This document shows positions 2 through 11,486 of a stretch of DNA of 61,524 nucleotides, one piece after another. The notes under the pieces were generated by a model. The model was not told where the DNA came from, made no database searches, and saw only the letters and a program-made list of their open reading frames with translations. This DNA is from Halanaerobiales bacterium. GTDB lineage: Bacteria > Bacillota > Halanaerobiia > Halanaerobiales > M55B127. Made by a program: the position numbers and the translations under genes. The stretch spans positions 1-61,524 of the forward strand of contig JAGXLU010000008.1 of NCBI GenBank assembly GCA_018334565.1. The letters run 5' to 3'. Numbering within the stretch: the first letter of the stretch is position 1; each line of letters begins with the position of its first letter.

Positions 2-676
2 ATTAATAAATATGTCAGAGCTGACAGCGGTTTTGCCAAACCAGAACTTTATCAATGCTGTGAAAGGCGTAATTTACAATATGCAATACGATTAAAAGCC
101 AACAGCATTTTATATAAAAAGGCTAAACCACTATTAGAACAGTTAAAGGAAAATGTCATCAATTCAAATGATGGTTATGGAGTTGTATATGCTACTTTTT
201 CTTATCAAGCTGGCAGCTGGATGAAAGAACGTCGGGTAGTAGTTAAAATCGAGCAAAAACCAGAGAAGCTAATTCCTAATTATACATTTGTAGTAACTAA
301 TATCAATGCTAAAGCAAAAGCTGTAATTAAATTTTACTCCAAAAGAGGTACTATGGAAAATTTCATTAAAGAAAGCAAAAATGGTTTTGCCCTGGATAAA
401 TTATCAAGCACTGATTACTGGACTAATGCAAACAAATTACAGCATATAGTACTGGCTTACAATATTCATAATCTGATGTGTAGACTCTGTTTTCCAGAAG
501 AATATCAAAAAGATACTGTTCAAACCACCCGGATAAAGGTCATAAAAATTGCTGGAAGAAAAGTAAGGTCTGGAAGATATACTTATTTTAAGTTAAGCAG
601 TTACGCGATGTACAAAAAACTCTTTCTTAAAATACATCAAAACATCAAAATGATAGCTTACTCAAAAGCAGCATGA
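2..676 (+). mobile_element. IS1380-type transposase, C-terminal part (partial)
   Basis: An open frame runs into the window from its left edge with no start codon in view and ends at 676. It reads as the C-terminal part of a DDE transposase. It opens with a RADSGFA segment, typical of a catalytic Asp region in IS1380/IS4-like enzymes, and has an RGTMENFIKE segment where the catalytic Glu is expected. About 224 codons are visible, roughly half of a usual IS1380 transposase, so the rest lies outside the window. The first internal ATG is at 221, but homology extends upstream of it. I cannot place the right terminal repeat. Family assignment is by recalled motifs only. Confidence 0.75.
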
Positions 677-935
677 CTGTATTAAATTTATTAAAGTCAT
701 TTTAAAAAGATAACTTTCATTCACAGGATAACTGTCTCTATTTTTAGTGTATATCATTTCTTTTATTGTGTAAATATACCAGATAGTTAAAACATAGTGG
801 ATTTAGTCTTTAGATTCATTTTTTATGATATGGAAAGTTGATTTTAGTTAACAAAGTTCATATACTTCGTTTCTATGAATATTTCGGGATATAATTATGA
901 TTATAGATATTTTAAAAAATAATATGTGTATTATA

Positions 936-10082: not shown

Positions 10083-10111
10083 TTGATAATTATTCCTGTT
10101 TATGCTATATT
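10083..10111 (+). promoter_or_regulatory. Promoter of the peroxiredoxin gene
   Basis: TTGATA (10083-10088) and TATATT (10106-10111) are separated by 17 bases and lie 35 bases upstream of the ATG, with AAGGAGGG as ribosome site in between. I did not find a clear PerR box. Confidence 0.55.
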
Positions 10112-10145
10112 TATTATAAGATATGAATTTAAGGAGGGTTAATAA

Positions 10146-10751
10146 ATGTTAAAAGTTGGCGAAAAGGCACCAGAATTTGAAGGAACAGCTTACCACAAAG
10201 GAAATTTTAAGAATGTAAAATTATCTGATTATGATGGAGAATGGAGAGTAGTATGTTTTTATCCAGGCGACTTTACTTTTGTATGACCAACTGAATTGTC
10301 GGCAGTTGCCGTCAAGTATGATGAGCTCAAAGATTTAGGAGCAGAAGTGATAGCAGTAAGTACCAACAGCCATTTTTCACATAAGATTTGGGATGAAGTA
10401 GAGCTATCTAAAATGGTTGAGGGTGGAATTCCTTATCCTATGGTAGCAGATACTTCGGGCAAGATCGGAAAGAAATATGGAGTATATGATGAAGAAGGTG
10501 GGGTTAATGTAAGAGGTAGATTTTTGATTGATCCTGATGGTGTACTACAAGCCATGGAAGTTCTTACACCACCTGTAGGTAGAAACGTATCAGAATTGAT
10601 GAGACAGTTACAAGCATTTCAACATGTCAGAAAGACCGGGGAGGCAACTCCTTCAGGCTGGAAACCTGGTAAGCCAACATTAAAACCAGGCAAGGATTTG
10701 GTTGGCAAGGTATGGAAAGAATGGCAGCCAAGTAATGCTTATGGTGAATAA
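10146..10751 (+). CDS. Selenocysteine-containing peroxiredoxin (AhpC/Prx family)
   Basis: Read from the ATG at 10146, with AAGGAGGG just upstream, the frame is uninterrupted except for one TGA at 10284-10286 (codon 47). The context is FYPGDFTFV-U-PTELSA, exactly where AhpC-type peroxiredoxins carry the peroxidatic Cys (FTFVCPTE). Reading TGA as selenocysteine gives a 201-residue protein with normal Prx sequence on both sides (SHFSHKIWDE, GVYDEEGGVNVRGRFLIDPDG). A SECIS-like hairpin follows the codon. The C-terminal part (ATPSGWKPGKPTLKPGKDLVG) aligns with the AhpC resolving-Cys region but has no Cys; the only Cys is Cys37. The enzyme would reduce H2O2 or organic peroxides. If the genome lacks sel genes this would be a nonsense pseudogene, which I consider less likely. 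Confidence 0.85.
10296..10315 (+). promoter_or_regulatory. Candidate bacterial SECIS element
   Basis: The mRNA can fold as UUG-U-CGGC-AGUU-GCCG-U-CAA: four G/C pairs, one U-U mismatch and three further pairs. The GU in the apical loop sits at 10305-10306. The loop begins 17 nucleotides after the UGA. Bacterial SECIS elements lie in the coding region just 3' of the UGA and need a short stem with a G or GU in the loop, so geometry and loop both fit. A competing hairpin (CAACTG/CAGTTG, 10288-10308) exists. Confidence 0.7.
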
Positions 10752-10765
10752 TAGATAAAATATGT

Positions 10766-10796
10766 AATAGGCTCTGTAAAAGGGGCCTATTTTTTA
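10766..10796 (+). terminator. Rho-independent terminator of the peroxiredoxin gene
   Basis: A nine-pair stem AATAGGCTC/GGGCCTATT with one G-U pair is followed by a run of T residues. It lies 14 bases after the peroxiredoxin stop, so the gene is monocistronic. Confidence 0.85.
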
Positions 10797-10871: not shown

Positions 10872-11486
10872 ATGGAAAGTGAAAATAATTATAGGGTCAC
10901 CACAACAGAACAGACAAATCTTTTGACCGATCCATTTGGTTTAACAGTACTCTCTGCATTAAGTCATAAAGAGTATTTATCAGCTGAAGTTATTGCAAAG
11001 AAATCGGGAGAAGAGCTGAAATTAATCAAAGAGTATTTAAAGTTTTTTGAACAGGAAGATATGATTTTATGCAAGGAGGAGGAAGTAACTAAAAAGTATG
11101 CAAAAAAAGCAGAGTATTATAGTTTTTCACCAGAACTACTGTCAATAATCCCTGAACAAATTCAGGATTATATAATTTTTGGATTGCTCCATGCAATGCA
11201 GGGAGATTATTATGATTTGATAAAACTTGCAAAAAAACACGAGGATTTAGACAGTGCTTTAAAAAAGGCTGGTTATCCAGAACCTGAAAAAAGTTTGAAT
11301 TTACTTATGGGTAAAATACATATTAAGGAAGAAGATATGGATGAAATGACAGACTATATTCGAGAATTATTTGATAAATATGATAGTGTACCTGAAGGTG
11401 AGAATGAAGAAGAATATCTAACTTTTGATCTCAATTTCTTTTTAAAGCCAACGATAGGTAAATTTAAAGAGAATATTGATGAATAG
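10872..11486 (+). CDS. Winged-helix-like protein, function unknown
   Basis: A 204-residue acidic cytoplasmic protein. Residues 15-75 look like an ArsR/HTH winged-helix domain (DPFGLTVLSALSHKEYLS, then AEVIAKKSGEELKLIKEYLKF), suggesting a DNA-binding regulator. The remainder is helical and rich in Glu/Asp, with no recognisable ligand site, and contains only one Cys (Cys62). A GGGGG-rich ribosome site precedes the ATG. It follows the peroxiredoxin terminator, so it is probably a separate transcript, though a functional link with oxidative stress is possible. I do not know the family. Confidence 0.7.
   Translation: MESENNYRVTTTEQTNLLTDPFGLTVLSALSHKEYLSAEVIAKKSGEELKLIKEYLKFFEQEDMILCKEEEVTKKYAKKAEYYSFSPELLSIIPEQIQDYIIFGLLHAMQGDYYDLIKLAKKHEDLDSALKKAGYPEPEKSLNLLMGKIHIKEEDMDEMTDYIRELFDKYDSVPEGENEEEYLTFDLNFFLKPTIGKFKENIDE

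Follow-up and report, generated by a model that had tools for sequence, protein, structure and literature searches.

A probable selenocysteine-dependent PrxU peroxiredoxin in a member of the Halanaerobiales

Introduction

Does a TGA codon that interrupts a peroxiredoxin gene at its catalytic position mark a broken gene, or is it read as selenocysteine (Sec)? The question arises at a locus of a Halanaerobiales bacterium, for which a draft genome of 2.16 Mb (97% complete) is available. The locus lies in the window, i.e., the whole stretch of 61,524 nucleotides analyzed, which corresponds to contig C55 of this genome. Ordinary annotation would cut the gene at its catalytic residue, and this reading is corrected here. 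Peroxiredoxins with Sec are well represented in published lists of selenoprotein families. PrxU was first reported by Soehling et al. (2001, Biol Chem 382:979, PMID 11501765), an article cited in PMC13188914, PMC9312934, and PMC8533274.

Results

Reading frame and genomic context of prxU

The frame termed prxU is intact apart from a single TGA, and the coordinates of both (Table 1) are exactly those claimed in the initial annotation. The latter had also placed this codon at the peroxidatic Cys of an FTFV-x-PTE motif; the motif was found, and in alignments with solved Prx1/AhpC structures codon 47 matches the catalytic Cys. Close homologues of the prxU product with solved structures include Prx1-4 and AhpC. 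As had been foreseen, standard ORF calling gives only positions 10296 to 10751, a remainder of 151 codons. The number of consensus matches of the kind represented by the candidate promoter is little above chance expectation, whereas the terminator downstream suggests that the prxU transcript comprises a single gene.

Table 1. Positions of prxU, its signals, and other features in the window
Feature	Position	Strand	Basis or remark
prxU	10146..10751	+	AhpC/Prx1-type peroxiredoxin, 201 aa, Sec predicted at residue 47; open frame when TGA = Sec
In-frame UGA, putative Sec47 (peroxidatic residue)	10284..10286	+	Codon 47; motif P40-x3-T44-x2-U47
Bacterial SECIS hairpin UUG-U-CGGC-[AGUU]-GCCG-U-CAA	10296..10315	+	Covariation, RNAalifold, synonymous shuffle
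Shine-Dalgarno AAGGAGGG and spacer ahead of prxU ATG	10131..10145	+	Direct sequence reading
Candidate promoter TTGATA-17-TATATT, TG before -10	10083..10111	+	Consensus match only
Intrinsic terminator AATAGGCTC-GGGGCCTATT and T run	10766..10791	+	1 found vs 0.4 expected
Protein of ~205 aa adjoining prxU	10872-11486		
ISL3-family transposase frame, one TGA	1464-2153	minus	No SECIS-like hairpin; synonymous-shuffle control
DDE group 1 transposase, C-terminal remnant	221-685		Near left edge; PF13701 positions 289-432

The protein of ~205 aa that adjoins prxU has a counterpart in a congener (L031, 3701-4333), which is also located beside prxU. Its N-terminus appears winged-helix-like by eye, and the protein gave no Pfam or NCBIfam match. 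A scan of the window for further selenoproteins returned only the TGA-broken ISL3-family transposase, which is an ordinary broken IS copy and a useful internal negative control.

Family assignment

The prxU product scored 355.1 bits with the NCBIfam equivalog model for PrxU (NF040737; curated cut-off of 270 bits, whole-protein score) and 203 with the AhpC model TIGR03137, under the cut-off of 272. Its Pfam domains are AhpC-TSA and 1-cysPrx_C, and the closest named records, which share 88% protein identity, belong to the Halanaerobiales. In the phylogenetic tree, the PrxU sequences, including the founding member of the family, formed a clade (support 100/96) apart from four Cys-containing AhpC relatives, a topology to be read with caution given the long outgroup branches.

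Conservation of the UGA codon

Homologues were collected by a stop-reading profile search, a protein scan of named genomes, and from a plasmid collection. Codon 47 was TGA in all 63 PrxU loci retrieved, which represent 56 distinct sequences from at least six phyla (Bacillota, Chloroflexota, Zixiibacteriota, Electryoneota, Calditrichota, and Acidobacteriota). The initial annotation had anticipated an interchange of Cys and Sec at this codon among orthologues, and this was not borne out: the 56 sequences uniformly carry the Sec codon, and no PrxU with Cys in place of Sec turned up among them when such versions were sought, with Cys occurring only in the outlying AhpC relatives. Judged from these sequences, Sec looks fixed in the PrxU clade, a mildly new observation; family-wide fixation rests on this set, which is mostly from Bacillota. 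The TGA is also found in two congeners of the host that were assembled independently. Together with its presence in all PrxU homologues, this excludes a sequencing or assembly error and a fresh nonsense mutation, and a TGT or TGC at codon 47 in the host strain is very unlikely.

The SECIS hairpin downstream of the UGA

The claim that a SECIS-like hairpin follows the UGA at the right distance was confirmed by synonymous shuffling and, strongly, by covariation among orthologues. The apical loop, with a conserved G, is located 17 nt downstream of the UGA. Nearly all PrxU sequences share this distance, a four-base AGUU/GGUC loop, and eight closing pairs; G22 of the hairpin alignment is invariant, and the hairpin of the host contains an internal U-U mismatch.

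In an ungapped alignment of 38 sequences, which was compared with 500 shuffles, 85% of the cells were paired and 51 cells showed double changes (19.3 expected from shuffling), and the covariation score was 0.387, as compared to 0.135 in the shuffles. None of the 500 shuffles reached the observed cell count or score. The number of pairs with double changes in this alignment showed no excess over the shuffles, so that the alignment supports the hairpin through its covariation score and its cell counts. When the partners were slid by 1 to 3 columns, the signal was gone, except for the paired cells at -3 (72%) and a small count of double-change pairs. RNAalifold, run unaided, returned the covarying stem core in register (columns 14-18 with 27-31) and did not predict the inner loop-closing pairs.

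Dinucleotide-shuffle folding of 50 nt gave no hairpin signal (z = -0.72), and this approach was replaced by the synonymous-codon shuffle and covariation. For the 45 nt after the UGA, the synonymous-codon shuffle resulted in a z of -2.46, with 16 of 1,000 recodings being as stable. The same procedure gave no hairpin signal for three Cys AhpC genes (z = +0.66, +0.47, and -0.94) or for the TGA-broken transposase of the window (z = -0.43).

Selenocysteine machinery

A selenoprotein requires the corresponding host machinery, and absence of selB and tRNA-Sec had been named as a finding that would refute one here. A search of the genome retrieved both, with 380 bits for selB (cut-off 242) and 66.5 bits for tRNA-Sec (gathering score 47), as well as selA (578 bits, cut-off 268) and selD (388 bits, cut-off 125), and the selenoprotein reading stands. 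These genes are located on contig C57 in the order yedF-like gene, selD, cysteine-desulfurase-like gene, selA, selB, tRNA-Sec. The selD gene (L009, 1752-2792) itself contains an in-frame TGA at residue 16 (MSEKIRLTQYSKTSGUAAK), with a strong hairpin behind it (z = -3.5); annotation would start this gene late.

Among 38 genomes of the order, selA or tRNA-Sec was detected in 14 of the 15 that encode PrxU and in 11 of the 23 that do not (Fisher p = 0.005, kinship not corrected for). In the remaining PrxU-positive genome (G030), the congener of which (G029) has both, neither was found, probably because this draft is incomplete.

The host genome encodes a second peroxiredoxin, a PrxQ/BCP-like protein of 149 aa (L023, 1432-1881, minus strand; ~46.4-46.8 kb of contig C84), in which an in-frame TGA occupies the catalytic position (DNTPGUKKEA). 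By its sequence, this gene is likely to encode a further selenoprotein.

Active site and loss of the resolving cysteine

The active-site residues P40 and R123 are invariant in PrxU, and T44 is present in 55 of 56 sequences. At the position of the resolving Cys, 52 of 56 have Thr, Ala, Met, or Leu. The host protein has Thr168 there, with GEATPSGW in place of the GEVCPAGW (C-terminal VCP motif) of typical 2-Cys AhpC. The resolving Cys is kept in only four sequences, from Calditrichota, Zixiibacteriota, Electryoneota, and an unplaced bacterium, which form a clade at the base of the PrxU tree.

Beside Sec47, the host protein has a single Cys, Cys37. It was set aside as a substitute resolving residue: six PrxU paralogues lack it, and it also occurs in the AhpC of Sulfurovum and Peribacillus (two of the four Cys relatives), which keep their own resolving Cys. 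Five of these six paralogues are entirely free of Cys.

One family of the order (f5) carries two PrxU copies, which are in tandem in G029 (L058 with L068, contig C7); further loci of this family are L066 and L069-L072. The five cysteine-free sequences (L070, for example) are copies of the second lineage, and Sec must act alone there.

Discussion

The gene almost certainly codes for PrxU, a member of the AhpC/Prx1 subfamily of peroxiredoxins that depends on Sec, in which SelB would insert Sec47 by way of the hairpin and for which a 1-Sec cycle is most likely. SelB and Sec-tRNA(Sec) would recognize the hairpin just past the UGA, leading to the insertion of Sec at residue 47. The Sec47 selenolate, set up by P40, T44, and R123, would then reduce peroxide and be converted to a selenenic acid. 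Because Thr168 replaces the resolving Cys, the direct reductant of oxidized Sec47 would most likely be an external thiol or a thioredoxin-like protein, and such a 1-Sec cycle is the simplest reading.

Three other explanations were weighed. The locus might be a pseudogene, an ordinary Cys peroxiredoxin with a nonsense TGA or an assembly error, and the window does hold one such case in the transposase frame with its single TGA. The prxU TGA, however, falls exactly on the catalytic codon, is kept in both congeneric assemblies and every distinct homologue, and, unlike that of the transposase, precedes a hairpin in which compensatory changes occur, in a genome that has the Sec machinery. Its conservation across orthologues already refutes the pseudogene reading, the probability of which we consider negligible. 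Decoding of the UGA as Cys or Trp, by a suppressor tRNA or code reassignment, is chemically compatible with the sequence data. But other parts of the window use TGA as a normal stop, with 4 of 49 long ORFs ending in it, so a genome-wide reassignment is not the case, and in view of the complete Sec machinery and the SECIS, such decoding is extremely improbable.

It is just as improbable that the 151-codon downstream frame is translated alone, with a start at TTG 10296, into a functional protein of reduced length. The gene caller does list this frame, but its product would have neither the first beta strands nor the peroxidatic residue, and homology continues through the UGA on both sides. Furthermore, no Shine-Dalgarno sequence is apparent by eye before the TTG, in contrast to the strong one upstream of ATG 10146.

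The gathered set points to a PrxU family in which Sec is fixed and the resolving Cys can be dispensed with, and the Cys-free paralogues allow a direct test of this. In the 2001 work on PrxU, the founding enzyme with residue 47 mutated to Cys was reportedly inactive in thiol-peroxidase assays. A stronger proposal, which we judge to be evenly balanced between right and wrong, is that Sec is obligatory in PrxU, that no Cys reversion has survived, and that the cycle is a true 1-Sec cycle, with Sec as the sole redox residue in the Cys-free second lineage of f5. If true, these paralogues would be natural one-residue test cases for the non-exchangeability of Sec and Cys.

On its sequence, the prxU gene described here is a sound new example of PrxU, a family known since 2001, and the Halanaerobiales, salt-loving anaerobes, are thereby predicted to join the carriers of selenium-based peroxide defense. 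The PrxQ/BCP-like protein of the same genome resembles PrxU in its AhpC-TSA superfamily and catalytic in-frame TGA but belongs to another Prx subfamily, scoring only 39 bits on the PrxU model. Typical 2-Cys AhpC/Prx proteins have the fold family and the active-site motif FYPxDFTFV(C/U)PTE in common with PrxU; position 47 is Cys in these proteins, with the resolving Cys close to residue 168, and the prxU product differs in both. Plasmid-encoded Cys relatives share about 45-50% identity with it. The founding PrxU of Peptoclostridium (Eubacterium) acidaminophilum, the gene of which sits on a megaplasmid and is annotated as prxU in RefSeq, is 64% identical over 201 aa. Both proteins have Sec (predicted here) at residue 47 and are without resolving Cys, and both SECIS-like hairpins have an AGUU loop. 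They differ in their hosts, P. acidaminophilum as opposed to a member of the Halanaerobiales, in the residue at the resolving position (Ala in the founding protein, Thr here), and in that following Sec (Ala and Pro, respectively).
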